This document shows positions 3,181-30,305 of a stretch of DNA of 32,785 nucleotides, one piece after another (position 1 is the first letter of the stretch; each line of letters opens with the position of its first letter). The translations under genes were made by a program, and so were the position numbers. Source of the DNA: Paenarthrobacter sp. CM16 (GTDB lineage: Bacteria; Actinomycetota; Actinomycetes; Actinomycetales; Micrococcaceae); NCBI RefSeq assembly GCF_013179505.1, contig NZ_JABMCX010000008.1:1-32785 (forward strand), read 5' to 3'. Under the pieces are notes generated by a model. That model was not told the DNA's origin. It saw nothing but the letters and a program-made list of their open reading frames with translations, and did no database searches.

Positions 3181-3484
3181 CTAGTCGCGTTGGACGTTTT
3201 CGATGACCTCATGCCACACAGACTCATGCTCTGGCTGCTGTAAGCCGTCGAGCTTCTGGCGTGTTTTCGATGAAGCTTGGGTCTGTGTGCCAAGCCTCCC
3301 AGTCGCCACGATTCCTCCGGATGCCTACAATCACGCGGGTGCCGGGCGAATCCATGGGCGCGAGAAGATGTCCGGAAATCCACCCTTATCTTTCATGCGC
3401 TGACCAGAATCTCGCTCTGATCAGTTTGTCCCACTCGTTTGCCGTCCGTGGGTCGAGATGCATCGTAGTCATTACCGTCATCAT
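3181..3484 (-). pseudogene. Decayed antibiotic-biosynthesis-monooxygenase (ABM) domain protein
   Basis: Read on the minus strand from the ATG at 3484, with GAGGAA seven bases upstream as a ribosome site, the sequence gives TTMHLDPRTANEWDKL, an in-frame TAA after SAHER (near 3404), and then GWISGHLLAPMDSP, RVIVGI and DWEAWHTDPSF. A +1 slip in an A run near 3270 then moves to a frame reading TRQKLDGLQQPEHESVWHEV and ending at the TAG at 3181. Put together this is about 100 residues, the size and layout of the small dimeric ABM/YgiN-like fold: a strand, a helix with the W-x-A-W pattern, and a final V-W strand. One stop codon and one frameshift make it a pseudogene. The family call rests on overall pattern, not on a catalytic motif. 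Confidence 0.5.
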
Positions 3485-4144
3485 GAGAGCGTTCCTCGCC
3501 TTGGTCTATGGAGCGAAGCTGCGTCTGTGGTTCTCAGGTTAGATTCCAGCCCCTCTCAGAGCAAGGAGCGGCGTTGACTCCTCCGCGTGGCGGCGTGGTT
3601 GAGGTTATCGGTGGAGGTCGGTGAAGCGACCTCTTTGATACAGCTCTCGAGGCCACATTTGCAGGTTGTGACGGACAAGGAGGCTCTGGCTTATCAAGTC
3701 CAGGTCGGCGAAGTCCTAAATCTTGGATCAGCTGAGGGTCAGCCTGATTGCTCAGCGAGCACGCCGCGCCGCTAGAGATTGCTTCCGCACAGGCTGGTGT
3801 CGGGGCGCCCTTCTGCTATTGCAAATCGCTCAGTCCCCCGCTATGGTTTAGATCACCTCGAGCGAACACGCAAATTACGTTCGTCAAGAAATTGTTTCTT
3901 AGGATTTGATATCAAAGAGCTAAAGACACTGTCGTCGCACGGCCACCGAGCATCGGATAGCTGTCCCGAGTGCGGTCATAGGCTCCCCCGGGACGCCGGC
4001 TTGCACTGGTTGGCGGCCTTAACCGGGATAGCACTTACCTCACTCAGCTGCCAGGAGTGTCTGCGTCTGGGACTGAATCCGGGGTGCCAAGACTCAGCCC
4101 ATCTCCGCTATGGCTGACACAATCTGCGGCCAGGACGAGGCGTT
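3485..4144. other. About 660 bases without a convincing gene; faint MerR-like trace
   Basis: Only one stretch looks protein-like. In the plus frame from 3779, RYGLDHLERTRKLR followed by LGFDIKELKTLSS (about 3839-3940) has the spacing of the MerR DNA-binding domain, where a RYxxxxLxRLRFIRxxxxLGFxLxEI pattern is usual. The N-terminal helix-turn-helix and a proper start are missing and the C-terminal part resembles nothing, so at most this is a relic. No promoter or terminator was recognised. Confidence 0.3.
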
Positions 4145-5023
4145 ATGTGCAGCTGCGAATCCCCCGAAGTGAATAGTCGCAGAATCCAAGGCGCTCAAGT
4201 TGTAGGACGCATAGCTGGGCTCCTTCGGATCATCGGACGCGATCCAGAAGGATGTTCATTGTCTGAGCTCGTTGAGAGTTCCGGCCTTACGCGGCCGACT
4301 GCTTATCGATTGGTTACATCGTTGGCTGCGGAGGGAATGCTGGACCAGGACGAACGGAGCGGACACTGGGTGCTAGGGCCTGAGATCATGCTGATGGGGC
4401 TGGTGGCCTCTGCCCGATTTCCCATGGAAGACGTTGTCCGTCCGAGTCTTCGAAGGTTGGCTGCAGAGACGTCGGAAAGTGTCTTCTTCTCTGTTCGGCG
4501 CGGAACGGAAACGGTATGCCTCATGCGCGAAGAGGGTAGTCTGCCCTTGCGTTCTTTCGTGCTGCATGAAGGCGTGCGGATCCCCCTTGGCATCGGTTCG
4601 GCGGGAATCGCAATTCTTGCCCTCCTTCCGCAAGTGGAGCAAGATGCTCTACTTGAAAACTGGGCGTCGCATTCCGACCGTTACGGCCTAACCCACTCCG
4701 TGGACTTGGTCAGAGCGAACATAGGGGCTGCGCGTCAGCGCGGTTTCTCTGTGGACGCCGAGTTCGTGCTAGAAGGCAACTGGGGTCTTGGGGCAGCGGT
4801 AGTGGACTTGTATGGGCGGCCGACATGGGCGCTTTCGATCACAGGCGCTTGCGCCCGCTTTAGGGATGAAGATCGCACGCAGCGTATGGGATGTCTCTTG
4901 ATGGAAGAGGCGCGCCGGATTAGCGATCATCTTCGCCATGCTCACAGACATCAAACCCTTTCGAGAATCAACCCCCTTCCTGCTGACTTTCACAGACCGT
5001 CGTTGAACGGGGCAGTGCATTAA
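4145..5023 (+). CDS. IclR-family transcriptional regulator
   Basis: Protein of 292 residues. The N-terminal winged helix-turn-helix runs from about residue 18 to 75, with LSELVESSGLTRPTAYRLVT as the recognition-helix region and LAAEGMLDQDERSG as the wing. The C-terminal effector-binding domain (about 90-265) includes RRGTETVCLMREEG, LGIGSAGIAILA and the late GAAVVDLYGRPTWALSITG segment typical of IclR proteins. Members usually control a neighbouring catabolic operon by binding a small acid. Here a CoA-transferase/thiolase operon starts 146 bases downstream on the same strand and is the obvious target. The tail after residue 265 is basic and unlike the family. The ATG at 4145 is chosen because GAGG lies just upstream, and it gives a full-length domain. 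Confidence 0.9.
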   Translation: MCSCESPEVNSRRIQGAQVVGRIAGLLRIIGRDPEGCSLSELVESSGLTRPTAYRLVTSLAAEGMLDQDERSGHWVLGPEIMLMGLVASARFPMEDVVRPSLRRLAAETSESVFFSVRRGTETVCLMREEGSLPLRSFVLHEGVRIPLGIGSAGIAILALLPQVEQDALLENWASHSDRYGLTHSVDLVRANIGAARQRGFSVDAEFVLEGNWGLGAAVVDLYGRPTWALSITGACARFRDEDRTQRMGCLLMEEARRISDHLRHAHRHQTLSRINPLPADFHRPSLNGAVH

Positions 5024-17015: not shown

Positions 17016-18728
17016 TTATGCATGGATGGCCAGCTCTTCATCAAGGAGACCTTTGACCTGGGCGACGGGAACAGCGACGAGGTCGGTCCTGCCGGAGATG
17101 ATCAGGGACGCTGCGACGTCGGCAGTGCAGTCGCGAAGCACGAGGGCTACCACGAAGCCGTGCCGGAGCCGGAGGATCTCCGCCACGCGCTGCTGGGCCA
17201 CAGCGGCATCGGCGGCTGCCCTAATATCACCGTCATCAACGGGAGCGGCTTCTACGATGACCAGCGGATCGGCACCAAAGGCACCAACTGACTCCTTGAC
17301 GAATTCTTCTGTCTGGTCAGGATGTGCTGGCGCACAGCACCAGATCCCGGACCCTTGGCCAGCGAAGATGGCAATTTCACGCTGGGTTCCGGGGCGGACC
17401 CGGCCATGCAGATCAGGGATTGCCGATTCCAGCTGTGCATCGATTGAGCCGCTGCCCGGGCCGACCGGGGTTGTCTGAGGGGCAAGACCAAGGATGCGTG
17501 AGGAGAAGCTGAGTTCTGAGTTGGCTTTGTATTCAGTGTTCAGAATCGGTGCCGTAGCGCTGCCCAGGAGGGCTCCGAGTGACCTTTTGACAAACTCCGG
17601 GTCGGACCGTTCCAGCCGGCGCCGTCCCAGCCGCCCGCTGCGGGTAAGGAAGTGGAAGGTGAACTGCGCCGCAGGCATCTCGGCGTATTCACCAAAGTGC
17701 TCCCACCAGGACAAGCTCGGGCGGGCGAGGTCCTGAATGCGGCGGACATCCTGGCGGCGCTCGTCCTCATAGCTGGAAAGTGCGGAGTCAACGTCCTGCT
17801 CTCCGGCTACGACTGCCGCGATCCGTTCCGCAAGGCACAGGGCATCTTCCATGGCCATCTTTGTGCCGGAGCCGACAGAAAAGTGAGCCGTGTGGGCTGC
17901 ATCTCCCAAAAGTACCGTCTTGCTGTCCACCTTCCAGTCCCTGGTGCGCACAGTTCGGAAGTTGGCCCACCGGGAGTTGTTGACAATCATCCGGCCGCCG
18001 TCGAGGTGCTTGGCGAACAACTTTTCGACATAGGCGGCGGTTGCCTCATCGGACGCCCCGGGTGGCTGAGTTGTGTCGAAGGCGTCTAGGCCGGCGCGTC
18101 GCCACGTTGCTTCATCCGTTTCGACAACGAAGGTGCTTGCCTCGTTGTTGTAGGGGTACGCGTGAACAGCGAACCATCCGTGTTCGTTCTTCTCGAACAG
18201 GAATGTCATCTCATCGAAGACCTTTGTCGTACCGAACCAGATGAATTTCGCCGATGCGGTTTCTACTGTCGCGCCAAGATCTGCGGCCTGCTGAGTCCGC
18301 CACATGCTGTTTCCTCCGTCGGCAACGACGACGATGTCTGCATCTGCGAGTTCGGGGGACTCCGGAGTGATGAGCGTTTCGTAGTGCATTTCAGTGCCGG
18401 CGCGGTCTGCACGTTCATGCAGGACATTTAGGAGGCGGCGTCGCTCGATAGCCGAAAATCCGTTCCCGTCACAGCGCCACACTTCGTCCCGAATCTTGAT
18501 GTCGATTCCCGGCCATTTGGCAGCGGAAGCAAAGAGCTCTTCGAATCCTGCCGGGTCATTGTTCTTCAGGTTTTGCATGGTGGGCTCACTGAAGACCACA
18601 CCGAAACCGTAGGTGGCTCCCAGCGGGTTGCGCTCATAGAGCGTCACTTCTGCTGAGGGCACACGTTCTCCAAGCAAACTCGCCAGGTACAGACCGCCAG
18701 GTCCTCCGCCGATGATTGTTACCTTCAT
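17016..18728 (-). CDS. FAD-dependent monooxygenase, salicylyl-CoA 5-hydroxylase-like
   Basis: Flavoprotein of 570 residues. The N-terminal 380 residues are a group A aromatic hydroxylase: FAD-binding VTIIGGGPGGLYLASLL, GATYGFGVVFSE, and the second FAD motif LLGDAAHTAHFSVGSGTKMA, a form shared with salicylyl-CoA 5-hydroxylase (SdgC) and anthraniloyl-CoA monooxygenase. These act on aryl-CoA thioesters. In many homologues the C-terminal half is an Old Yellow Enzyme domain. Here only about 180 residues follow and no flavin-barrel start is seen, though the end (ADVAASLIISGRTDLVAV) looks like the last barrel segment. It is the first gene of the operon with the ligase, hydrolase, cupin and BKACE genes, and has an operator-like site upstream. 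The exact aryl-CoA is unknown. Confidence 0.85.
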   Translation of the reverse strand: MKVTIIGGGPGGLYLASLLGERVPSAEVTLYERNPLGATYGFGVVFSEPTMQNLKNNDPAGFEELFASAAKWPGIDIKIRDEVWRCDGNGFSAIERRRLLNVLHERADRAGTEMHYETLITPESPELADADIVVVADGGNSMWRTQQAADLGATVETASAKFIWFGTTKVFDEMTFLFEKNEHGWFAVHAYPYNNEASTFVVETDEATWRRAGLDAFDTTQPPGASDEATAAYVEKLFAKHLDGGRMIVNNSRWANFRTVRTRDWKVDSKTVLLGDAAHTAHFSVGSGTKMAMEDALCLAERIAAVVAGEQDVDSALSSYEDERRQDVRRIQDLARPSLSWWEHFGEYAEMPAAQFTFHFLTRSGRLGRRRLERSDPEFVKRSLGALLGSATAPILNTEYKANSELSFSSRILGLAPQTTPVGPGSGSIDAQLESAIPDLHGRVRPGTQREIAIFAGQGSGIWCCAPAHPDQTEEFVKESVGAFGADPLVIVEAAPVDDGDIRAAADAAVAQQRVAEILRLRHGFVVALVLRDCTADVAASLIISGRTDLVAVPVAQVKGLLDEELAIHA

Positions 18729-18791: not shown

Positions 18792-18833
18792 GAAACAGTA
18801 AATTTACGAAGTATCAAGACCCTGTTTCGTAAA
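18792..18833 (-). promoter_or_regulatory. Operator-like inverted repeats upstream of the monooxygenase operon
   Basis: Two nested inverted repeats: TTTACGAA (18803-18810) with TTCGTAAA (18826-18833), and GAAACAG (18792-18798) with CTGTTTC (18822-18828). The left side reads GAAACA-N7-TACGAA, a motif also found at 28693-28711 and, on the other strand, at 24191-24209. It lies 65-105 bases before the monooxygenase start. PaaX, encoded nearby, is the leading candidate to bind it. Confidence 0.55.
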
Positions 18834-18931
18834 ATTGTGATGCGGCTCTCATTCAGTTGACGTGTAAGCAGTTTTAGAAGCCGCGGCGCAGTCGAACTCC
18901 GTGACGTATTGTCTGCTCATATGCAGCACGA

Positions 18932-18962
18932 AGAGCGGCCCTCCATAATGAAGGGCCGCTCT
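18932..18962 (-). terminator. Terminator hairpin after the ligase relic
   Basis: A perfect 11-bp stem, AGAGCGGCCCT (18932-18942) pairing with AGGGCCGCTCT (18952-18962), with a 9-base loop. It lies 17 bases past the stop of the AMP-ligase relic on the minus strand, so it was probably that gene's terminator and now ends the hydroxylase/PaaX operon. A diverged copy of this sequence lies at 19235-19280. Confidence 0.65.
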
Positions 18963-19280
18963 AGGTGGAGTACAGAAGTCAGTCCGGGGTGAAGAGGCGG
19001 CGAACCGCCGCTTTGTCGATCTTTCCGACCTTGGTCAAGGGCAGGTCATCGACGGAGCGAACCTGTTGCGGGATCTTGAACGCAGCCACGCCCGCTGCGA
19101 GCAGGCCGGAGCGAACCCACTCGACAGTGGGTGCTCGGATGGGTTGACCGGCACGATCACCGCACCTATGCCCTCACCGAGCGTCGTGTCGGGGGTCGCG
19201 ACCACCGCCACCCGAAGCAGACCGGGAAGCGCGTAGCGGCCCTCCTCAATGAAGGGCTCCAACATGGGGACAGAGGTCAG
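18934..19280. repeat. Two diverged direct copies of a ~47-bp gene-end sequence, ~300 bp apart
   Basis: The stretch 18934-18982 (AGCGGCCCTCC, ATGAAGGG, then ACAGAAGTCAGTCC) matches 19235-19280 (AGCGGCCCTCC, ATGAAGGG, then ACAGAGGTCAG). Both copies cover a stop codon (minus strand) and the terminator region after it: one for the ligase relic and one for PaaX. The relic lies between them and begins exactly where the second copy ends. Confidence 0.6.
18979..19235 (-). pseudogene. 3' remnant of an AMP-forming aryl-acid ligase (salicylyl/2,3-dihydroxybenzoyl-AMP ligase type)
   Basis: Minus-strand reading gives LRVAVVATPDTTLGEGIGAV, the start of the C-terminal domain of ANL adenylating enzymes. After a one-base deletion near 19125-19130 another frame reads EWVRSGLLAAGVAAFKIPQQ followed by DDLPLTKVGKIDKAAVRRLF and the stop at 18979. 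The KIPQQ...LPLTKVGKIDK ending is typical of aryl-acid AMP ligases. About 85 residues remain of an enzyme normally around 540 long. The fragment lies between PaaX and the monooxygenase operon, where a ligase gene would fit functionally. It is clearly dead. Which aryl acid the ancestor used is inferred. Confidence 0.75.
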
Positions 19281-20074
19281 CCCTGGGTCAGGCTCTCGTA
19301 GTACTTGACAGCCTCGGGACGAAGCCTGTCGAACGCCTGAAGAAACTTTGAGTGCGCCTCCACGGCCGGCCAGTCCGCGGGTAGCAGCTCCGGCGGAAGT
19401 CCAGGGTCCCGGAAGGGAAATTTGCGATAATCGTGAATGAGCCTGGTTCGTGTAATGAGGGCCGAGCGGCCAGTATACGCAGACTCGGAGGCGCTGATAA
19501 TTTCATCGCATCTGGGGATAAAGGACCGGTACTCGTGCGCAAGTTCTTGGAGGTCCCAGCTTTGCGCTGCCCGCTCCCGGTCGTCTTTGAGACCTCGACT
19601 GCGGGCCTCAAAGAGGTCGTACTTAGCACTGGGCTCGCCTTGCAGCGCTTCTTCAGCCTCATCCAATTTGTCATGGGGGGCGAGCCAAGTGGCCGGGGCC
19701 AGTTGACCGAAACCGAGCCAAGACAGGGTGGTTTTCAATCTCGATCTTGCCGCCCGGTCACGTTCAGGGACACTGAAAATAACCAGGTACCAGATGCCAT
19801 TCCACTTTTCCTGAGAGGGCGACTGCATGATGCGCTGCAGGCCCGAGTCAAGAAGATCCCATCCTTTTGCCGACGGCGTGTAGGTGCTGGTGCGACCCGC
19901 ACGGGTGGCGTCGAACCATCCCTCCCTGGTAACCCTGGACATAATGACACGGGCCGAATCAGGGGCTACGTCAAAGCATTCGAGGAGAGCGGAGAGTTTC
20001 TGCAATGAAATAGATCCGCCATCCTCACGGATGTAATCGCCGAAAAGGTCAAAAACCACGGACCTTGCCTGCAT
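19277..20074 (-). CDS. PaaX-family transcriptional regulator
   Basis: Protein of 265 residues. The N-terminal winged helix (about 5-75) shows VVFDLFGDYIREDG, LLECFDVAPDSARVIMSRVT and REGWFDATRAGRTSTYTPS. The middle WYLVIFSVPERDRAARSRLK and LGFGQLAPATWLAPHD are characteristic of PaaX, followed by the C-terminal helical domain. PaaX in E. coli represses phenylacetate genes and is released by phenylacetyl-CoA; relatives respond to aryl-CoA esters. Here an aryl-CoA ligand made by the ADP-forming ligase is plausible. AGGAGAGG precedes the ATG. It follows the hydroxylase small-subunit gene by about 30 bases and is likely the last gene of that operon, giving feedback control. Confidence 0.88.
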   Translation of the reverse strand: MQARSVVFDLFGDYIREDGGSISLQKLSALLECFDVAPDSARVIMSRVTREGWFDATRAGRTSTYTPSAKGWDLLDSGLQRIMQSPSQEKWNGIWYLVIFSVPERDRAARSRLKTTLSWLGFGQLAPATWLAPHDKLDEAEEALQGEPSAKYDLFEARSRGLKDDRERAAQSWDLQELAHEYRSFIPRCDEIISASESAYTGRSALITRTRLIHDYRKFPFRDPGLPPELLPADWPAVEAHSKFLQAFDRLRPEAVKYYESLTQG

Positions 20075-20105
20075 GATGCCCGCCTCTCCTGATCCGAAAC
20101 TCGAT

Positions 20106-20633
20106 TCACCCGTTCAGGGCAGTTGCTTCTAATGGAGCAGCTGAGGTCACGTCCGGGTTGCCCGACGGAGCGTCTTTGCTGGCCTGCTGAACCGCTTTGA
20201 TAATCTTGTCATAGCCAGTGCATCTGCAGAGGTTACCTTTGAGGCCCACACGAATTTCTTCTTCTGTCGGCTCGCTCTTCGTCTTGAGCAAGGCACAGGC
20301 GGACATGATCATGCCTGGAGTGCAGAATCCGCACTGCAGCGCTTGATTGCGGCTGAAAGCTTCCTGCATGGGATGTAGTTCCCCACCCTGGCTGAGCTGT
20401 TCAATTGTCGTGACCTCGCTGCCGTCGACCTCCGCGGCCATGACGCAGCAGGACTTCACTGTGGCGCCGTCAAGCTCCACTGTGCAGGCGCCGCAGTTAC
20501 CGGTTTTGCAGCCGATGTGGGTGCCGGTGAGCTGAAAGTCGTCGCGGAGCATCACGGCGAGGGTCTTGCGGGCGTCAACGGAGTGCCGGACGGGCGTTCC
20601 GTTGATCGTGGTGTCTATTTCGAAGGTGCTCAT
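20106..20633 (-). CDS. Molybdenum hydroxylase small subunit, two [2Fe-2S] clusters
   Basis: Iron-sulfur subunit of 175 residues in the xanthine dehydrogenase/CO dehydrogenase superfamily; it passes electrons from the molybdenum site to FAD. The plant-ferredoxin-type cluster uses Cys42, Cys47, Cys50 and Cys62 (GCKTGNCGACTVELDG). The second cluster uses Cys101, Cys104, Cys136 and Cys138 (CGFCTPGM, NLCRCTGYDKI). All eight cysteines are present. It lacks a Tat signal, as usual for cytoplasmic actinobacterial enzymes of this type. AGGAGA lies before the ATG, 20 bases after the medium-subunit stop. The order large-medium-small differs from the medium-small-large order common in other clusters. Confidence 0.95.
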   Translation of the reverse strand: MSTFEIDTTINGTPVRHSVDARKTLAVMLRDDFQLTGTHIGCKTGNCGACTVELDGATVKSCCVMAAEVDGSEVTTIEQLSQGGELHPMQEAFSRNQALQCGFCTPGMIMSACALLKTKSEPTEEEIRVGLKGNLCRCTGYDKIIKAVQQASKDAPSGNPDVTSAAPLEATALNG

Positions 20634-20653
20634 AATTTCTCCTGAAGAACGCT

Positions 20654-21463
20654 CTAGTTACCCAGTGCAAGGTCAATAGCCCTGTGGGCCAGCACGCCGG
20701 CCATCGCGACCCTGTATTCGGCTGTTGCCATGTGGTCGGAATAGGACTCTTTGCAGGCGTCACGGGCGGCGCCTTCGAAGTCAGCATCAAGGTGGGATTC
20801 CACCACAATGGGACGATACTTTGCCCCCCCGAATCCGAGGGTTACTGAACGGTCATTCCTGACCAGAGCAACGACGTTGACCGTTGAATAGTTACCCATG
20901 ACGCGGGCGAACCTGATGTAAGCGGTGCGTACCTCAGGTGCCAGAGTAGGGACGCGGACCTCTGTGATGATTTCATCGGGACGGACGACGGTTTCCAATC
21001 GGCCCACGTTGAGGTCCCGGACGGGCAGTTCGCGGGATGTGCCAGCGCTGTGCAGAACGGCGGTTGCTCCAAGGGCGCTGAGGACGGTCGGGTATTCAGC
21101 ACCCGGGTATCCGTGGGCAAGGGAACCGCCGATAGTGCCGCGATTTCTTACCTGCACGTCCGCAATCTTGCTAGCAGCGTCAGCCAGGGGAGGACAAAGC
21201 CTGGCTATCCCAGGATTTGAGGCGATCTCCACGTGGGTGACTGTTCCCCCGATCCTGAGTAGATCACCGCGGCTTTCGATGAATTTCAGCTCGTCAATCC
21301 GCCTAAGGGAAACGAGACCTGTAGCCGTTCGGGTACCTAGGTTGATCAGCGGAAGCAGGCTCATTCCGCCACCAAGTGCCTGTGGTGTCCCCTCTCCGGA
21401 CAGCAGCTCCAGAGCCTCCTCAACTGTCTTTGGGGCGTGGAAAGTGAATTCCTGGGGAAGCAC
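20654..21463 (-). CDS. Molybdenum hydroxylase medium subunit, FAD-binding
   Basis: FAD subunit of 269 residues (CoxM/XdhB-like). The FAD-contact motifs are ALGGGMSLLPLINLG (about 31-45) and NRGTIGGSLAHGYPGAEYPT (about 105-125), followed by the CO-dehydrogenase-flavoprotein C-terminal domain. It takes electrons from the iron-sulfur subunit and hands them to an acceptor. The start is GTG directly after the TAA of the large subunit, with AAGGAGAT inside the upstream gene as ribosome site, so translation of the two is coupled. Confidence 0.94.
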   Translation of the reverse strand: MLPQEFTFHAPKTVEEALELLSGEGTPQALGGGMSLLPLINLGTRTATGLVSLRRIDELKFIESRGDLLRIGGTVTHVEIASNPGIARLCPPLADAASKIADVQVRNRGTIGGSLAHGYPGAEYPTVLSALGATAVLHSAGTSRELPVRDLNVGRLETVVRPDEIITEVRVPTLAPEVRTAYIRFARVMGNYSTVNVVALVRNDRSVTLGFGGAKYRPIVVESHLDADFEGAARDACKESYSDHMATAEYRVAMAGVLAHRAIDLALGN

Positions 21464-23878
21464 TTAGACCATCTCCTTTTCGGGCGCTTGCGCAGCTTCG
21501 GCCATGACGTTTGTTTTAGCCGCTTGAATTGCGGTCCAGAGACGGCTGGGGGTGACTGGTAGTTCGGTCAAGCGAACACCCAGGTCACTAAGCGCATCCT
21601 CGATCGCCGCGGTGATGGCTCCCGGTGGACTTCCGACCCCCGACTCACCAACGCCTTTTGTGCCCAGAGGGGTGAAGGGCGACGGAGTGTTCTGGTGACC
21701 AACTTCGATGTCCACTGCTTCCTGGGACGTGACCATGGTGTAGTCCATGAAGCTTCTTGTGATGGGCTGCGCTTCGTCGTCATAGGCAACAAATTCATAC
21801 AGTGTCGAACCTATCCCCTGCGTGATGGCCCCCTGCAACTGGGCCTCCGCCAGGAGCGGGTTCACAATTGGCCCGCAGTCATGAATGAGAACAAACTTCT
21901 CCACTTTCACCACGCCGGTTTCAGGATCAACTTCGACGACGGCTCCCGAACTGGCATTGGACCATGTTGGGTAGCCGTTGAATTTTCCGTCCACCTCCGG
22001 CTGATGGTAAACGTTGCCTATTTTGAAGCTTTTTGTCGTGTCCAACCCGGGATCGGTGTTGTCCATGTGTTTGCCATGGGGAAAGAGGTACACCTGCTGC
22101 ACTACCTCGCTGAACGTAACCGTCGCCTCGGGAGCCTCGGTAGAGCTGAACACATCTTCCGTGATGCTCACTGTGTCCGCCGAAACGCCCAGCATGCTGG
22201 CCGCTACCGTTGTCATCTGCTTCTTGATCTCCAAAGCCGCCAGGTGTGCCGCGGAACCGCCCAGCATAAGCGATCTGGAACTGTAGTTGCCCGAACCCAT
22301 AGGGCACGAGTCCGTGTCTCCCTGTGTGACACGTATTCTGTTCAGGCTGCAGCCCAGCGCATCTGCAACGATCTGGGCGATGCCGGTTTCGTTGCCTGTC
22401 CCGGGAGATGTAACACCGGTCAGGACCGAGACGTCACCTCCGGGAGTTACTCGAACAGTAGAAGCTTCGTAGCCGGCATAAAGACTGCCGGGCATGCAGA
22501 AGCCCTCCGGTGTCAGTTCTTGGCCCAGCCCGATCCCGAGGTACTTTCCCTGCCTGCGGGCTTCGGCTTTGCGTGCGGCAAATCCTTCGAAATCAAGCTT
22601 CTCCAAAAGCTTATCCAGTGTTCCGGCATAGTTGCCGCTGTCCAGGATGGCGCCCGTCGGCTGCATGAATGGGAATTCGTTTTCGGGAATGAAATTCCGG
22701 TGACGCACGACGGAACTGGGAAGTCCGGCCTCTTTGGCAACATGTTCGACGACCCGGTCGAGGAAGAACGACGCCGTGTCCTTGCCGTAGCCCCGGTACG
22801 CCTGCCAAGGGCTCTTATTGGTGACGACTGCTATGAGTTCGGTCTCAAGATTGGCGATCTTGTAGGGCCCCGGTACGCAGAGCCAGGTCACGTAGGCCAT
22901 CCCCCAGCCGGCAAGGGCAATCGGTGCACCAACATCGGCGATCATCCGCATCTGCAGCGATGTTATGGCTCCATCTGAACTGAAGGCGGCGGTGTACTCC
23001 GCCTCTACATCCCGGGCGTGCCCGGCTGCGAGGAGGTGCTCTTGGCGGTCTTCTATCCACCTGACGGTCCGCTGTGTCCGCTTTGCCATGTAGGAGGTAA
23101 GAACCTCTTCCTGCGTCGTGGGGCACTTGATGCCGAAAGCACCCCCCACGTCAGGCTGGATGACCCTCACATCATTTTCGGACAACCTCATGGCCTCAGC
23201 GAGGTAGGTCCGCAAGACGTGGGGGGCCTGAGTTGAGGACCAGCAGGTTAGACGCTTCCGGTGCTGGTCCCAGGAAGCAACCACGCCGCGGGTTTCAACA
23301 GGTGAAGCCTGGATTCGAGCCGACTTGATACGCCCGCTTACGGTGCCGGCAGCGTCCCGTAATGCCTGCTCCGGATCTCCTGTGACCAGTTTCTGCCGGA
23401 TCAGGACGTTGTCGGTCCATCCGGGCTCGACCAGGGGCGCTCCTTCCGCAAGCGCCGCTTCCGCATTGGGGATGACAGGGAGCAGTTCGTAATCTACTTC
23501 GATCAGATCGCGTGCAGCCAGAGCTGTCGCTTCGTCTTCCGCCAGAACAGCAGCTACTGCTTCGCCAACGTAGCGGGCCCGATCCACGCACAGGGCGTAC
23601 CACGGCGCATACTGGGCTCCCAACGCCCTGGTGTTAATGGCCTCAGGGATGGGATTTGTGTTTTCGCGGATCTCGGAGGGCGTCAAGACGTAAATTACAC
23701 CTTCAACCGCCTGCGCTTGGGAGGTATCGATCGACTTGATCCGAGCGTTGGGGTGGGGGCTGCGAAGGACGACCATTGTCGCCACGCCCCGCGGCTGAAC
23801 GTCTGCTATGTATGAACCGCCTCCTGCTACAAGACGATCATTGTTCATGCCCTTGATGGGTTTACCAACGTTAACCAC
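21464..23878 (-). CDS. Molybdenum hydroxylase large (molybdopterin-binding) subunit
   Basis: Catalytic subunit of about 804 residues in the xanthine dehydrogenase/aldehyde oxidase family, hydroxylating a carbon next to nitrogen in a ring, or a related substrate, with water. It shows the DVGGAFGIK motif, SPWQAYRGYGKDTASFF in place of the usual AYRGAGRPEA, GSGNYSSRS, and the C-terminal GTKGVGESGVGSPPGA with the catalytic glutamate. The AYXCSFR motif of true CO dehydrogenase is absent, so CO is unlikely to be the substrate. I place the start at GTG 23878, with AAGGAAGG upstream, rather than the GTG at 23929, which has no ribosome site. The substrate is unknown; an N-heterocyclic or aromatic acid fits the surroundings. 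Confidence 0.92.
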   Translation of the reverse strand: MVNVGKPIKGMNNDRLVAGGGSYIADVQPRGVATMVVLRSPHPNARIKSIDTSQAQAVEGVIYVLTPSEIRENTNPIPEAINTRALGAQYAPWYALCVDRARYVGEAVAAVLAEDEATALAARDLIEVDYELLPVIPNAEAALAEGAPLVEPGWTDNVLIRQKLVTGDPEQALRDAAGTVSGRIKSARIQASPVETRGVVASWDQHRKRLTCWSSTQAPHVLRTYLAEAMRLSENDVRVIQPDVGGAFGIKCPTTQEEVLTSYMAKRTQRTVRWIEDRQEHLLAAGHARDVEAEYTAAFSSDGAITSLQMRMIADVGAPIALAGWGMAYVTWLCVPGPYKIANLETELIAVVTNKSPWQAYRGYGKDTASFFLDRVVEHVAKEAGLPSSVVRHRNFIPENEFPFMQPTGAILDSGNYAGTLDKLLEKLDFEGFAARKAEARRQGKYLGIGLGQELTPEGFCMPGSLYAGYEASTVRVTPGGDVSVLTGVTSPGTGNETGIAQIVADALGCSLNRIRVTQGDTDSCPMGSGNYSSRSLMLGGSAAHLAALEIKKQMTTVAASMLGVSADTVSITEDVFSSTEAPEATVTFSEVVQQVYLFPHGKHMDNTDPGLDTTKSFKIGNVYHQPEVDGKFNGYPTWSNASSGAVVEVDPETGVVKVEKFVLIHDCGPIVNPLLAEAQLQGAITQGIGSTLYEFVAYDDEAQPITRSFMDYTMVTSQEAVDIEVGHQNTPSPFTPLGTKGVGESGVGSPPGAITAAIEDALSDLGVRLTELPVTPSRLWTAIQAAKTNVMAEAAQAPEKEMV

Positions 23879-24178
23879 AAGTGCACCTTCCTTGGTGATT
23901 GTTTGGGGAGGTCGTGGGGTTTGCGCCACAAATCGGATTCTGCTTACGGTGACCGGAGCAGCCCGCCGATGCAGCGGAGCGCAGAATTATCACTTCGCTC
24001 ACGGGGGAAACATGCTGATGGCTTCGCCCGCGGCGACTCCTTGGCGTGTTCGTTACCGGCCTGTCCTGGGACAAACAGTGTCGAGCCCCGTGGCTCCGAG
24101 TGCGATATAGATGCGTCGACATTGGCGCTCGTATCGTCCTTTCGATCCTTGCCCCCTTTGGCATAATTAGCGTATCAT

Positions 24179-24209
24179 TACGAAATACGTTCGTCTATGA
24201 GATGTTTCA
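24179..24209 (-). promoter_or_regulatory. Promoter/operator between the hydroxylase operon and xdhC
   Basis: On the minus strand TTGAAA (24209-24204), 17 bases, then TATTTC (24186-24181) could be the hydroxylase promoter. The same stretch contains GAAACA-N7-GACGAA (minus strand, 24209-24191) and the inverted repeat ACGAA-N5-TTCGT (24180-24194). The motif matches sites at 18792 and 28693. A protein bound here would block the -35 region and could also affect the divergent xdhC gene. Confidence 0.5.
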
Positions 24210-24340
24210 AAAAAAATCCGATCGCGGTCGGGGACAGTGTGGATCCTGACGGCCAACGCATGCTGCAAAGGGCTTGACGTTCCAGGAGCCGGATCGCAGC
24301 TTTGGCACTGAGCGCGGAACATGAAAGGCGGGACAACAGC

Positions 24341-25492
24341 ATGAAGGAAGTCATTTCCGAGCTCTCCAGACAGCTCGCCCTGGGACAGCCGGTGGCGCTG
24401 GCAACGGTCGTTCGGACGCAGCACTCCGCCCCCCGCCCGGAGGGTTCTTCGATGCTTCGCCTTCATGACGGAAGTGCCGTCGGTTCCATATCCGGCGGGT
24501 GCGTTGAAGGGGCGGTCTATGAACTCGGGGCTGCCGTACTGGCATCGGGGAAGCCCGAGTTGGAGACCTACGGGTTCAGTGACGACGATGCATTTGCCGT
24601 CGGCCTTACATGCGGAGGCATGCTGGACGTCTTCGTGGAACCCGTCACGGGAGAAAGCTTCCCCGAACTTGATTCCCTCGCGGCCGCCATCGGCGCTGAC
24701 CGGCCAGTGGCCCTGGCTACCGTAATCGCCAGTCCCGAGCCAAACTCCGTTGGACGTCATTTGGTCATCGATGCTAGACGCGTCAGGGGAACCACAGGAG
24801 ATCCCAGGGCAGACAACGTCATCGCTGACGATGCACGTGGACTCCTTGCATCCGGCACGTCTTCAATCCTGACGTACGGACCGGAGGGCCAGCGGCTCGG
24901 CACGGGAGTGCAGATCTTCGTGAATTCATTCGCCCCTAAGCCGCGAATGATCGTATTTGGTGCAGTTGATTTTGCATCAGCTCTTGCTCAGCAAGGGAAG
25001 TTTCTTGGCTATCACGTAACCGTATGCGACGCGCGGCCTATCTTTGCCACACCCGCCCGCTTCCCGAGCGCCGACGCTGTGGTCGTCCAATGGCCTCACA
25101 AATACCTGGAAGATGAGGCCTCTGCCGGGCGCATCGACGCCAATACTGTTTTGTGTGTCCTGACTCACGACCCAAAGTTCGATGTGCCGGTCATTGATGT
25201 AGCTTTGCGGCTCCCGGCCATCGGCTATCTCGGGGCCATGGGCTCTCAGCGCACCCATCAAGACAGGGTCGCCCGGCTGCTAAGTGTGGGACTCCTGGAA
25301 GAGCAGATTTCCCGCGTGGCAAGCCCGATTGGCTTGGACATTGGTGGACGGACTCCAGAAGAGACTGCAGTCTCCATAGCCGCCGAGATAGTCGCTTCCC
25401 GGTGGGGAGGCAGCGGCAGGCCATTGAGCAATAACCGAGGTCGCATACACTCCCCGGACCGCCGGATCGTGGTCAGTGCGACGGCCGGCTAG
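24341..25492 (+). CDS. xdhC: XdhC/CoxI-family molybdenum-enzyme maturation factor
   Basis: Protein of 383 residues. The N-terminal CoxI/XdhC domain has ALATVVRTQHSAPRPEGSSM and SISGGCVEGAVYE. The C-terminal Rossmann-type domain begins near PKPRMIVFGAVDFASALA and ends with LGAMGSQRTHQDR and GLDIGGRTPEETAVSIAAEI. XdhC binds molybdenum cofactor, promotes its sulfuration and inserts it into the hydroxylase. It is transcribed away from the large-subunit gene, so it serves that enzyme. The ATG at 24341 is preferred; an in-frame TTG at 24302 has no ribosome site. The IS481 element is inserted nine bases after the stop, leaving the gene intact. Confidence 0.9.
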   Translation: MKEVISELSRQLALGQPVALATVVRTQHSAPRPEGSSMLRLHDGSAVGSISGGCVEGAVYELGAAVLASGKPELETYGFSDDDAFAVGLTCGGMLDVFVEPVTGESFPELDSLAAAIGADRPVALATVIASPEPNSVGRHLVIDARRVRGTTGDPRADNVIADDARGLLASGTSSILTYGPEGQRLGTGVQIFVNSFAPKPRMIVFGAVDFASALAQQGKFLGYHVTVCDARPIFATPARFPSADAVVVQWPHKYLEDEASAGRIDANTVLCVLTHDPKFDVPVIDVALRLPAIGYLGAMGSQRTHQDRVARLLSVGLLEEQISRVASPIGLDIGGRTPEETAVSIAAEIVASRWGGSGRPLSNNRGRIHSPDRRIVVSATAG

Positions 25493-25506
25493 TCGATCCG
25501 ACTAGC

Positions 25507-26629
25507 TGTACTGCCCGGGGAGGTTGGTTGAGGCCGTGTGAGGACACGGCGTGAGATTTCCGGGATGACGAAGGCCTCCTAGGTGTGGAGTGGAGCTGTC
25601 TAGTCTAAGAAACCGCTGCACACCTAGGAGGCCTTCGTGTCCCACGCTAACGCAATGTTGACCCCAAAAGCCCGTTTGAAGCTCGCCCAATTGGTCGTTG
25701 AACAGCATTGGACGATCACCGAGGCAGCCAAGCACTACATGGTCTCCTGGCCCACCGCTAAACGTTGGTTCACCCGCTACCTCGAACGCGTGCCCGAATG
25801 AATGGAGGACAAGTCATCCCGTCCCCGCCGCAGCCCCAACCGGACCCCGGGGAAACTGGTCAAGCGCATCGTTGCCCTGCGATGGCCCAAGCGGATGGGG
25901 CCGGTGCAGATCGCCGGGCGGCTAGGCATTCCGGCCTCGACCGTGCACGCCGTCCTGGTCCGCTGCCGGATCAACCGGCTGCGCTACATCGACCGGCTCA
26001 CCGGCGAAACGATCCGCCGCTACGAACGCACGGCCCCAGGCGAGATGCTCCACGTCGATGTCACCAAGTTCGGGAACATCCCCGACGGCGGCGGCCACCG
26101 CTACCTTGGCAGGTCGAGGGCGGAAAGAATTCCAGAACCTCAGCGGCGCGCAGCGGCTACACCCGCTCCAGCAAACACCCCAGAAACGGCACCGCCTACG
26201 TTCACACGGTCTTGGATGACTACTCCCGTGTTGCCTACGCTGAAATCCACCACGATGAGAAAGCCGTCACTGCCGTCGCCGTTCTCCAGCGGGCCGTGGC
26301 CTGGTTCGCCGGGCAGGGGATCATCACCACACGGGTGCTCTCGGACAACGGATCCGCCTACGTCTCCAAGGCCTGGAAAGCCGCCTGCGCCGAGCTGGAC
26401 ATCACCGCGAAACGAACCCGCCCCTACAGGCCCCAGACCAACGGAAAAATCGAACGGTTCCACCGCACACTCAACGACGGCTGGGCCTACGCCAAGTTCT
26501 ACGGCACCGAAACAACCCGCAGAGAAGCCCTACCCGGCTGGATTCACTACTACAATCACCACAGGCCCCACATCGCACTCGGGAACAGGCCACCCGTCAG
26601 CCGGCTAAACAACCTCCCTGAGCAGTACA
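25507..26629 (+). mobile_element. IS481-family insertion sequence, complete ends but inactive
   Basis: The element is 1123 bp. The left end reads TGTACTGCCCGGGGAGGTTG (25507 on) and the right end, as reverse complement, TGTACTGCTCAGGGAGGTTG (26629 backward), matching at 18 of 20 positions. It is flanked by the 6-bp direct repeat ACTAGC (25501-25506 and 26630-26635), the target duplication. It carries one transposase gene broken by a stop and a frameshift. Intact ends and duplication mean it came by transposition and has not moved since. Confidence 0.9.
25568..25638 (+). promoter_or_regulatory. Long hairpin covering the transposase ribosome site
   Basis: A perfect 20-bp inverted repeat (25568-25587 with 25619-25638) encloses a 31-base loop. 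The right arm contains the ribosome site AGGAGG (25626-25631) and the first two bases of the GTG start (25637). In a transcript reading in from outside the hairpin would hide the translation start; a transcript starting in the loop would leave it open. Confidence 0.7.
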
Positions 26630-26634
26630 ACTAG
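25637..26634 (+). pseudogene. IS481-family transposase, disrupted
   Basis: DDE transposase of about 330 residues. The N-terminal helix-turn-helix (QHWTITEAAKHYMVSWPTAK) is followed by an in-frame TGA at 25799; the same frame continues with EDKSSRPRRSPNRTPG and a second helix-turn-helix (GPVQIAGRLGIPASTVHAVL) to GGHRYLGR. Near 26108-26125 the frame shifts, after which HTVLDDYSRVAYAEIH, RVLSDNGSAYVS, RTRPYRPQTNGKIERFHRTL and NHHRPHIALGNRPP complete the integrase core and the stop at 26632-26634. The catalytic aspartates and glutamate (DD...E) are kept. One nonsense codon and one frameshift make an active protein unlikely, unless both are bypassed. Confidence 0.88.
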
Positions 26635-26786
26635 CCGGCCCGACCGGCCTCCATTGCTCTTTACATGCTAACGCCGTTGGTAAGAATTGCCGTGTCGCTC
26701 CGGGGTTACGCCGCCCTGAGCGATAGACGTAAGGCCGTTTTCATGATCTCTGGCACAAAAAGCCTCGCCCGTGGTGGCTTCGGGGC

Positions 26787-27512
26787 CTAGACCCACAACC
26801 GTCGCTCCGACAACACCCTGCCGTTCGACGCTGTGAGTATGCCTCTGCCCGATGCCCATTTGGCGAGCTCATATGCAGACCGCTGCCTCTGGTGCGCCCA
26901 TTCATAGGCTGATACTGGCTGAACATCAAGGCCGGACATGATCGTGGACTCCTCACGGACCTGTACCGTCAAGCCCGAGTCTTCAGAGAGGTCCGACAAT
27001 ATTCGGGAGACGAACTGGTGGGGCAAGGATGAAAAGGACAATCCCGTATTCAGGTCCAGGGCTCGAAGCCACACTTCCCGCGCCCTCAACCACACCATGG
27101 CCTTCAACGTGACGGCGTCATTGTCTCGTTGTACAGCCAGTGACCACCGATCGTCCCTCAAATCACGCCATGCAACGCTCAGGTGAACGGCAGCGTGTTC
27201 TGAGAGGTTCCTCAGCGACTGCGGTGGAAGCGTCGAGGCAAACGCAGCCTCAGAATTCACTCGCGCTTCGGATGTCACGAGAGTTGAGCTGCCACTCTCA
27301 GCATCGTCGGCAAGGAGAGCTATGTCGCGGGCATTCAATGCCACGTGCGCAATCAGTCGGCGTCGGCTCCAGCCGGGGACGAGCGATGGATCATCCAGCT
27401 CTTTGTCCCCGGCCTGCTTTAGAGCACGGTTATAAAAGGCCTGACCACGTCGGGCGAGGAGTAGGTCAGCTACGAGGTCCTGATCAGTTGCCTTATCTGT
27501 TCGGGCAGCCAT
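26787..27512 (-). CDS. Mycothiol-dependent maleylpyruvate isomerase
   Basis: Protein of 241 residues of the MDMPI family, which uses mycothiol and a divalent metal to turn maleylpyruvate into fumarylpyruvate in the gentisate pathway of actinobacteria. Features are the N-terminal DinB-like helical bundle with VPGWSRRRLIAHVALNAR (the His is a metal ligand), AAVHLSVAWRDL, and AMVWLRAREVWLRALDLNTG with the second metal-site region, then a small C-terminal domain. AAGGAA precedes the ATG. It follows gentisate dioxygenase by 67 bases on the same strand, so the two form an operon and catalyse consecutive steps. Confidence 0.85.
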   Translation of the reverse strand: MAARTDKATDQDLVADLLLARRGQAFYNRALKQAGDKELDDPSLVPGWSRRRLIAHVALNARDIALLADDAESGSSTLVTSEARVNSEAAFASTLPPQSLRNLSEHAAVHLSVAWRDLRDDRWSLAVQRDNDAVTLKAMVWLRAREVWLRALDLNTGLSFSSLPHQFVSRILSDLSEDSGLTVQVREESTIMSGLDVQPVSAYEWAHQRQRSAYELAKWASGRGILTASNGRVLSERRLWV

Positions 27513-27579
27513 TGGAAGTTCCTTTTTGCCTGGGAGGGTGCGCAGACATGAGGGCCTGGCGCCCAGAGATGGTTGCGAG

Positions 27580-28659
27580 CTAGTTTTTAGCGCCGGGGAT
27601 GAAGGTCCTGGAAAAATTCAAACGGTCCATGATCGGGCCATCGTTGTAGCGGAAGAGGTCAAATTCCGTATCCGCATGCAAAGACCATGAGACCCAACTG
27701 GGCACGGCAAAAAGGTCGCCTTTTTCGAGCTTGGTCTCAACGCCCCCGAGTACAACTGTTCCGGTTCCCTCAAAAACCTGCCAGACTGACGAGCCAACTT
27801 CGTGCCGGGTGGGTGTGTCCGCGCCTGCCCGCAGCCTGTGGAACTCGCAGCGCAGAGTCGGCATGACATCCCCGCCTGTTGTCGGGTTTACATAGCGGAT
27901 GGCCGCGTGTCCTTGCTCGACAGTCGCTGGATGGCCTTCGTCTTCAAGCCTCAGCTGTTCGCGCAAGGCAGCGTCGGTATATTCCCATCGGTATGCTGCA
28001 AGCGGCGAACAGGTCTTGTTGTCAAGCTCCGAGAGCGGGCGCAGGCCGGGATGGGCCCAGAGCCTCTCGCTTCGAGAGACGGACGGAGATGCTTCATCGG
28101 TGACGCGCTCAGACCCGAATTCGAAGAAGCCCACATCCATGTACCTGGAGAAGGGAACGTCCAAGCCATCGATCCACGCCATTGGCTTATCGGTGTCGTT
28201 GTGATGACCGTGGAAGTTCCATCCTGGAGTCAGGAGGAGGTCCCCGCGTCTCATGGCGACGGGGTCACCGTTCACTACAGTCCAGACTCCCTCGCCCTCA
28301 ACGACAAAACGGAAGGCATTCTGGGCGTGGCGGTGTTCGGGTGCGGTCTCGTGTCCACCGAGGTACTGGATGGCGCACCATAGGGTGGGAGTGGCATACG
28401 CGGTGCCCACCAACCCGGGGTTGGCAAGGCCGATTGCCCGGCGCTCTCCGCCGCGCCCAACCGGCACGAGCTCCCCGCTCCTCTCGGCGATGTCGAACAG
28501 AGTGCGCCACCTCCACACAAAGGGAACGGCATCCGACTCAGGCACCATGGGCATCAGGTCATCGCGCTGCGTCCAGAGCGGGGCGAGGCTGTTGGCCTCA
28601 AAATCCGAATACAGCTTGGTAAGTTCCGGTGTAAGTGCGTTCTCATTTGTCGACTGCAT
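27580..28659 (-). CDS. Gentisate 1,2-dioxygenase
   Basis: Iron(II) ring-cleavage dioxygenase of the bicupin family, 359 residues, converting gentisate to maleylpyruvate with O2. The N-terminal cupin has the metal ligands His109, His111 and His150 in PEHRHAQNAFRFVVEGEG and LTPGWNFHGHHND. The C-terminal cupin is RHEVGSSVWQVFEGTGTVVL and LFAVPSWVSWSLHAD. The PLWTQRDDLMPMVPES start and LANPGLVGTAYATPTLWCAI segment are typical. The ATG at 28659, with GAGGGAG six bases upstream, is preferred over an in-frame start at 28689. A promoter and operator-like site lie just before it. It supports the view that the nearby monooxygenase yields a gentisyl product. Confidence 0.93.
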   Translation of the reverse strand: MQSTNENALTPELTKLYSDFEANSLAPLWTQRDDLMPMVPESDAVPFVWRWRTLFDIAERSGELVPVGRGGERRAIGLANPGLVGTAYATPTLWCAIQYLGGHETAPEHRHAQNAFRFVVEGEGVWTVVNGDPVAMRRGDLLLTPGWNFHGHHNDTDKPMAWIDGLDVPFSRYMDVGFFEFGSERVTDEASPSVSRSERLWAHPGLRPLSELDNKTCSPLAAYRWEYTDAALREQLRLEDEGHPATVEQGHAAIRYVNPTTGGDVMPTLRCEFHRLRAGADTPTRHEVGSSVWQVFEGTGTVVLGGVETKLEKGDLFAVPSWVSWSLHADTEFDLFRYNDGPIMDRLNFSRTFIPGAKN

Positions 28660-28692
28660 GGCAGGCTCCCTCGTCATCGAAAAGACCAATGC

Positions 28693-28739
28693 GAAACATC
28701 ATTGGTACGAACTGTAATAGAGTGTTTCATAAAAGACAA
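28693..28739 (-). promoter_or_regulatory. Promoter and operator of the gentisate dioxygenase operon
   Basis: On the minus strand TTGTCT (28739-28734), 17 bases, then TACAGT (28716-28711) form a good promoter. The plus-strand sequence GAAACA-N7-TACGAA (28693-28711) overlaps the -10 and start point, and TGTTTC (28723-28728) lies between the hexamers. The arrangement GAAACA-N7-TACGAA-N11-TGTTTC nearly repeats the one at 18792-18828, where the last gap is 12. This placement suits a repressor. Confidence 0.6.
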
Positions 28740-29920: not shown

Positions 29921-30305
29921 TCGGCGACAGAAAAGCCCAAGAGCTGAACAAAGGCCCACCACACAGTTCAAAACCAGCAGCCTACCGATGACAACCATCT
30001 TTCAACGATGCGCAGCCGACCGCGGCGGACGGTAAAGCGCGTCCCGGCGATTTTCAAGCAGGCTTCGCTCAAGCGTCTATGAATTCACTCACGACGACGA
30101 TTGCACCTCGGTTTAGGCCGCCGGACCTATCCGCGCGAACGCTTTTTGGCCTATCAAGAACCCCGCGTTCCTGGGCAGCAGCGCCGGGTGCCAGAAATGC
30201 CTCGAATACCTCGCCGGGTAAGCATTCACCCAACCAACGTTTCACGGATGGTCTCGAATAACGACGATCTCATCATCAGGCTCTGTTCGGCCCTTGTTGT
30301 TACTG
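29921..30305. other. About 385 bases without a recognisable gene
   Basis: This stretch lies between the 3' ends of the MpaB-like and HxlR genes. Open frames on both strands are short and without family pattern. No clear terminator hairpin was found although two genes converge here. Confidence 0.45.

Follow-up and report, generated by a model that had tools for sequence, protein, structure and literature searches.

MeqR2, encoded on plasmid pAL1 of Arthrobacter sp. Rue61a, is presumably an anthraniloyl-coenzyme A (CoA)-responsive repressor of the PaaX type that recognises the palindrome TGACGNNCGTCA. Escherichia coli PaaX responds to phenylacetyl-CoA and has the operator TGATTC(N27)GAATCA, as given in the review PMC9493321, and for the IclR family the survey PMC8222616 lists the half-sites TGRAACA and RYGRAMC, the consensuses TGRAACAN1-2TGTTYCA and GKTYCRYW3-4RYGRAMC, and sites made of three boxes. 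These systems were compared with a motif, GAAACA-N7-KACGAA, that recurs in a 32,785-nucleotide stretch of Paenarthrobacter sp. CM16 (contig NZ_JABMCX010000008.1, positions 1 to 32,785; hereafter the window). On comparative evidence, the motif is probably (we estimate about 85%) the left arm and inner box of the operator of a PaaX-family repressor encoded at 19.3–20.1 kb.

The motif is real. Four exact copies of GAAACA-N7-KACGAA were found in the window, at 18792-18810(+), 24190-24208(-), 28693-28711(+) and 3880-3898(-), compared with a mean of 0.00 exact matches in 100 shuffles of the window, and allowing up to two mismatches added just one match. Genome-wide, six exact copies were counted in 4.98 Mb, four of them on this 32.8-kb contig. 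An initial annotation of the window had listed three of the sites, all of which are exact copies, with the minus-strand one misplaced by 1 bp (24191-24209 for 24190-24208); its claim that the motif stands before only these promoters was wrong, the exact copy at 3880-3898(-) having been overlooked. A sequence-only profile of 43 positions was built from the four window sites and five sites of Arthrobacter sp. P2b, and a weight-matrix scan of window and genome, which the initial annotation had proposed as a check, showed the profile to be specific to the island, with only the four window sites at an expectation value (E) ≤ 10 (50 candidates from a loose first look scored); these four sites helped to build the profile, and the informative part is that no other places in the same genome were returned.

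The full site is 36–37 bp long, GAAAC-N26/27-GTTTC, with the inner KACGAA box beginning at the ninth base past the left GAAAC; the motif as first described took in only the left arm and the inner box, and the TGTTTC arm noted at two sites is indeed present, after N11 at 28.7 kb and after N12 at 18.8 kb. Numbered along the window, S1 lies 246 bp before an IclR-family gene at 4145, S2 precedes a flavin monooxygenase operon whose genes run on the minus strand, S3 lies in a divergent region between a molybdenum (Mo)-hydroxylase/paaX operon (start 23929, minus) and xdhC (ATG 24341, plus), and S4 lies 33 bp before the likely ATG (28659) of a gentisate-dioxygenase-like gene on the minus strand.

P2b shares stretches of about 95% DNA identity with the window, the shared part ending at window position 29969. 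Its genome holds six copies of the window pattern, five of them on one contig at 22.6–52.1 kb in the matching island, and the profile returned its five sites (E 1.4e-5 to 1.9e-4) plus two weak matches (E 0.24 and 0.35). Three P2b sites are orthologous to S2, S3 and S4, and alignment of these promoters, also proposed at the outset, showed that at S3 three spacer bases have changed and none in the conserved boxes; GAAACA and ACGAA are invariant in all nine window and P2b sites. One of the two extra P2b sites lies between a small monooxygenase-like open reading frame (ORF, named by reading) and a mocA-like gene, and the other before a run of MFS-, CoA-ligase- and acyl-CoA-dehydrogenase-like genes.

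Regulation of aromatic pathways by IclR proteins is common, and the position of S1 would suit an operator of the IclR-family regulator at 4145-5023. The IclR half-site TGRAACA also resembles the TGAAACA found here, and three-box sites have been described (PMC8222616). In the consensuses given there, however, the half-sites are 1–4 bp apart (N1-2 or W3-4), compared with 26–27 bp here; neither consensus matches the window exactly, and three or more mismatches separate them from each site. P2b keeps the sites together with a PaaX 98% identical to that of the window, whereas the nearest P2b counterpart of the window IclR shares 60% identity and sits on a different contig (C15). The arm-pattern loci described below were moreover found through PaaX, with sites at the promoters of PaaX-linked genes, and ownership by this IclR regulator is improbable.

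Clusters around more distantly related PaaX genes gave no match to the exact window motif. By eye, GTAAC-N26/27-GTTAC was noticed in the promoters of some of these relatives; the spacer tests came later, and those loci were not blind. A stretch of a Rhodococcus plasmid contributed nothing further. PaaX relatives 39–47% identical to the window protein were taken at 17 loci (14 from same-family or same-order genomes, three from plasmids), picked via PaaX alone, and scanned for TGNAAC-N26/27-GTTNCA with at most one mismatch, the promoter interval being defined as 350 bp before to 30 bp into the paaX, monooxygenase and gentisate-dioxygenase matches. In a count over 19 loci (75,832 bases; L030 and L031 excluded as overlaps of L008 and L009), TGNAAC...GTTNCA with ≤1 mismatch occurred nine times at N26 and seven times at N27, and each of the remaining spacers between 10 and 45 gave three occurrences at most. 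A promoter site at N26/27 was present in 12 of the 17 loci (11/16 without the near-duplicate G123, whose locus L065 is close to L064 of G244 and was kept among the 17 and omitted from the inner-box test), compared with at most 3/17 (mean 1.18) for other adjacent spacer pairs and a mean of 0.49 loci (maximum 3) in 300 dinucleotide shuffles; 18 of 23 sites fell within the 18,042 promoter bases of 317,738 (5.7% of the sequence). With unrelaxed arms (pure TGTAAC or TGAAAC pairs), 8/17 loci had a site at ≤1 mismatch (other pairs, maximum 1) and 13/17 at ≤2 mismatches (maximum 5); for the window's own arm TGAAAC alone, these numbers were 3/17 (maximum 1 elsewhere) and 7/17 (maximum 4). Eight of the 17 loci were added once the arms were known and were blind in that respect; six of them had a promoter site with relaxed arms, three (L073, L074, L076) keeping it with unrelaxed arms at ≤1 mismatch. 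No spacer peak was seen in 17 outgroup loci of more distant PaaX (27–37% identical), which include near-duplicates (e.g. L019, L020) and were scanned as 3.8-kb loci.

The clusters resemble salicylyl-CoA/gentisate operons: in addition to PaaX, 12 of the 17 loci have matches to the monooxygenase, the ADP-forming and AMP ligases, the gentisate dioxygenase, FAH and the isomerase. The gentisate-dioxygenase-like protein has a 54–77% identical match in 14 of the 17, with none found in the other three. In L069, L072 and L075, paaX closes the cluster and the site stands at the monooxygenase promoter, and L074 has one site before the gentisate dioxygenase and a second before the monooxygenase/paaX pair. 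A third regulator, either the HxlR protein (30.3 kb) or one encoded in another part of the genome, might bind the sites, with PaaX merely co-occurring in the same islands, and the P2b island does have more regulators (among them two IclR proteins, one of them next to paaX, and MarR-like proteins, by ORF reading). Against this, loci selected by PaaX alone show the arm pattern again in several genera and families, and the window HxlR falls beyond the part shared with P2b, so that we consider this quite improbable.

Within the spacer, TGACG/CGTCA was present in 8 of 15 relatives' sites (shuffled spacers, mean 0.56, maximum 3/15), starting at spacer position 8 or 9 from the nearer arm in six of the eight and elsewhere in two. 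The window KACG starts at spacer position 9; the GACG start is identical in three relatives and one base off in three. The inner box of some relatives is TTGACG, which resembles a -35 element and might suggest a dispersed repeat, of promoter or structural type, with no regulator of its own, but the ACGAA box faces against the gene at S2 and S4 and so is no -35 there, and its invariance in the window and P2b, the shuffles, the spacer-pair controls and the restriction of the profile to four sites make such a repeat, or chance, very improbable.

Like the E. coli PaaX operator, as described in PMC9493321, the sites would belong with a PaaX-family protein, and they have inverted 6-bp arms of the form TGnnnC/GnnnCA, at N27 there and N26/27 here (with the right arm weak in two window sites). 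They differ from it in the arm letters (TGAAAC here, TGNAAC in relatives), in having an inner KACG/TGACG box by the left arm, and in the other regulon genes. The window arms GAAAC/GTTTC do not match the E. coli arm sequence, and TGATTC/GAATCA at N26/27 had no match in the related loci even with two mismatches. Earlier, the motif had been said not to match the E. coli PaaX site closely, which holds for the letters and not for the geometry, and the common TGnnnC...GnnnCA form with near-equal spacing suggests a binding geometry shared with E. coli PaaX. In strain K-12, the paaZ-paaA gap contains TGATTC-N27-GAATCG and, nearer paaZ, TGTTTC-N28-GAATCA, with one mismatch each, and the region upstream of paaX merely imperfect arm pairs at other spacings (22, 26 and 31).

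MeqR2 also belongs to the PaaX family, and pAL1 likewise has genes for a Mo-hydroxylase, moaA and a salicylyl-CoA-hydroxylase-like protein, whereas the PaaX identity to the window protein is about 30%. The palindrome TGACGNNCGTCA occurred three times in the pAL1 stretches examined and had no exact copy in the window; the S1 inner box equals it with one mismatch, and the other sites with 3–5. No arms were found at the pAL1 palindromes, L036 having no match and the first 22 kb a single one, at 20895, away from the palindromes. Among the matches listed in the open-licence PMC literature, no such site was described for this PaaX subfamily. At two out-of-class monooxygenase promoters (L083 and L084) a different repeated arrangement was seen by eye, GAACGTTGACA...ACGNNCGT...ACGTTATGT with a ACGNNCGT core, which is perhaps the PaaX operator of that lineage.

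The reading as a PaaX regulon operator, offered in the initial annotation, is the best supported, and gains comparative support from the arm spacing, the related arm, and the inner box in a subset, at matching promoters. Several results weigh against it. Relaxing the third arm position to N followed a view of the 3.8-kb loci of the eight later additions, and the relatives' arms are mostly GTAAC, not GAAAC. Five of the 17 loci (L033, L034, L067, L070, L071) lacked a promoter site at ≤1 mismatch, the locus of Rhodococcus p52, which has the closest PaaX of the 17 (47%), was among the loci without one, and the arm pattern was absent from all four out-of-class loci. In the window, the right arms of S1 and S3 are weak; these sites have three and two mismatches, respectively, to TGNAAC-N26/27-GTTNCA, and two of the four sites would miss the ≤1-mismatch cut applied to the relatives. 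A scan for sigma-70 consensus promoters found none at S1, S2 and S4, including at 28.7 kb, where a good promoter had been reported, and one promoter-like site overlapping S3 (24149-24178, plus, towards xdhC).

Most likely, by analogy with the family, a PaaX dimer would repress all the units and be released by an aryl-CoA, following the precedents of phenylacetyl-CoA for E. coli PaaX and, presumably, anthraniloyl-CoA for MeqR2. With arm centres separated by 32–33 bp, or roughly three helical turns, the dimer would grip both arms from the same face of the DNA, and bound PaaX would block RNA polymerase; an aryl-CoA thioester would release it and the units would be switched on together. The ligand would most likely be a salicylyl-CoA-type substrate or product of the monooxygenase; as this enzyme is of salicylyl-CoA 5-hydroxylase type, the first candidate is salicylyl-CoA itself or a closely similar compound. 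With paaX as the final gene of the Mo-hydroxylase operon, PaaX would also repress its own gene via S3.

Coordinates of the sites and genes are collected in Table 1; many gene names are at family level only, with scores below curated cutoffs or names taken from reading translations.

Table 1. Putative operator sites and associated genes in the window.
Feature	Position	Strand	Basis and details
S1, putative operator, GAAAC-N26-GTTCG	3863..3898	-	Exact motif; profile E 4.8e-5
S1 parts: left arm GAAACA, inner box GACGAA, weak right arm	3898-3893 (left arm), 3885-3880 (inner box)	-	
S2, putative operator, GAAAC-N27-GTTTC	18792..18828	+	Exact motif, profile; conserved in P2b
S3, putative operator, GAAAC-N27-GATAC, weak right arm	24172..24208	-	Exact motif, profile; conserved in P2b
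S4, putative operator, GAAAC-N26-GTTTC	28693..28728	+	Exact motif, profile; conserved in P2b
IclR-family regulator behind S1	4145..5023	+	Pfam HTH_IclR, IclR_C
FAD monooxygenase, salicylyl-CoA 5-hydroxylase-related, first gene behind S2	17016..18728	-	NF006101
PaaX-family regulator, 265 aa, last gene of Mo-hydroxylase operon	19277..20074	-	Pfam
Mo-hydroxylase behind S3	20106..23929	-	ORFs; large subunit 21464-23929, medium 20654-21463, small 20106-20633
XdhC-family protein (Mo-hydroxylase maturation)	24341..25492	+	Pfam XdhC_C, XdhC_CoxI; start by P2b comparison
Gentisate 1,2-dioxygenase-like cupin behind S4	27580..28689	-	TIGR02272, 250.2 bits, below the 442.1 cutoff

The regulator scored 58.2, 78.5 and 77.5 bits with Pfam PaaX, PaaX_M (a Cas2-like domain) and PaaX_C, all above gathering, and thus has the N-terminal, middle and C-terminal domains by which family membership was judged. 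It scored 177.8 bits with TIGR02277, below the 264.55 cutoff for PaaX proper, the phenylacetate repressor, and is related to a PaaX repressor of solved structure (8a39, E 5.3e-31). The monooxygenase scored 410.7 bits with NF006101, below the cutoff of 1078 and over residues 1-383 only; its operon runs from 18728 down to about 9493, with genes for an ADP-forming CoA ligase, FAH-family, cupin, BKACE-type, moaA-like, moaD-like and MFS proteins. The large subunit of the Mo-hydroxylase belongs to the xanthine dehydrogenase/CO dehydrogenase superfamily, with every score below cutoff, and the medium and small subunits were named from reading translations; this operon, ending in paaX, spans 23929 down to 19277, divergent from xdhC. 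The S4 unit also includes a maleylpyruvate-isomerase-like gene, and in the S1 unit CoA-transferase and thiolase genes come after the IclR gene.

Further observations concern the sites and their surroundings. A palindrome, ACGAA-ATACG-TTCGT at 24180-24194, overlaps S3 and has one arm base different in P2b. Window positions 3200-3436 are 69% identical, as DNA, to the small monooxygenase-like ORF by the P2b site at C2:22592, and S1 may also relate to a gene or remnant there; a homology of the S1 flanks with those of P2b C2:52125, suspected by eye, was no better than shuffles and was rejected. A stretch of about 8.2 kb that separates paaX from the monooxygenase operon in P2b (L037 10839-18993) is missing from the window; it contains an IclR, an ABC transporter, a thiamine diphosphate (ThDP) enzyme and most of an aryl-AMP ligase, whose final ~260 bp are left as a remnant beside the window paaX (18978-19235); an aryl-AMP (CoA) ligase was not found elsewhere in the same genome at E ≤ 1e-40, in a search without a positive control. 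Between xdhC and the maleylpyruvate-isomerase-like gene, the window has a segment, 25518-26630, with a transposase-like ORF (by reading); P2b lacks it, and there the two flanks meet with 18 bp of overlap. L064 (8611-10510, G244) and also G123 have a tandem paaX pair with three operator-like sites beside and between. The window PaaX is 47% identical to that of Rhodococcus p52 and 46% to those of a Streptosporangiales and a Chloroflexi metagenome-assembled genome, compared with 44% for the best of 295 sampled same-family genomes, and this closer match outside the family hints at acquisition by horizontal transfer.

The operator of aryl-CoA/gentisate PaaX repressors may have three parts: two arms at the E. 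coli PaaX distance of three helical turns and, off centre, a TGACG/KACG box that is half of the MeqR2 palindrome. The E. coli and MeqR2 operators, seemingly unrelated, would then be two reductions of one ancestral composite, each keeping different contacts; we regard this as a speculative and rather doubtful proposal, under which the inner box may connect sites of the E. coli and MeqR2 types. The sites provide a concrete candidate operator and regulon for a PaaX subfamily tied to CoA-dependent salicylate/gentisate-type clusters in actinobacteria, and would place gentisate cleavage, a Mo-hydroxylase and an aryl-CoA monooxygenase under a single predicted switch.

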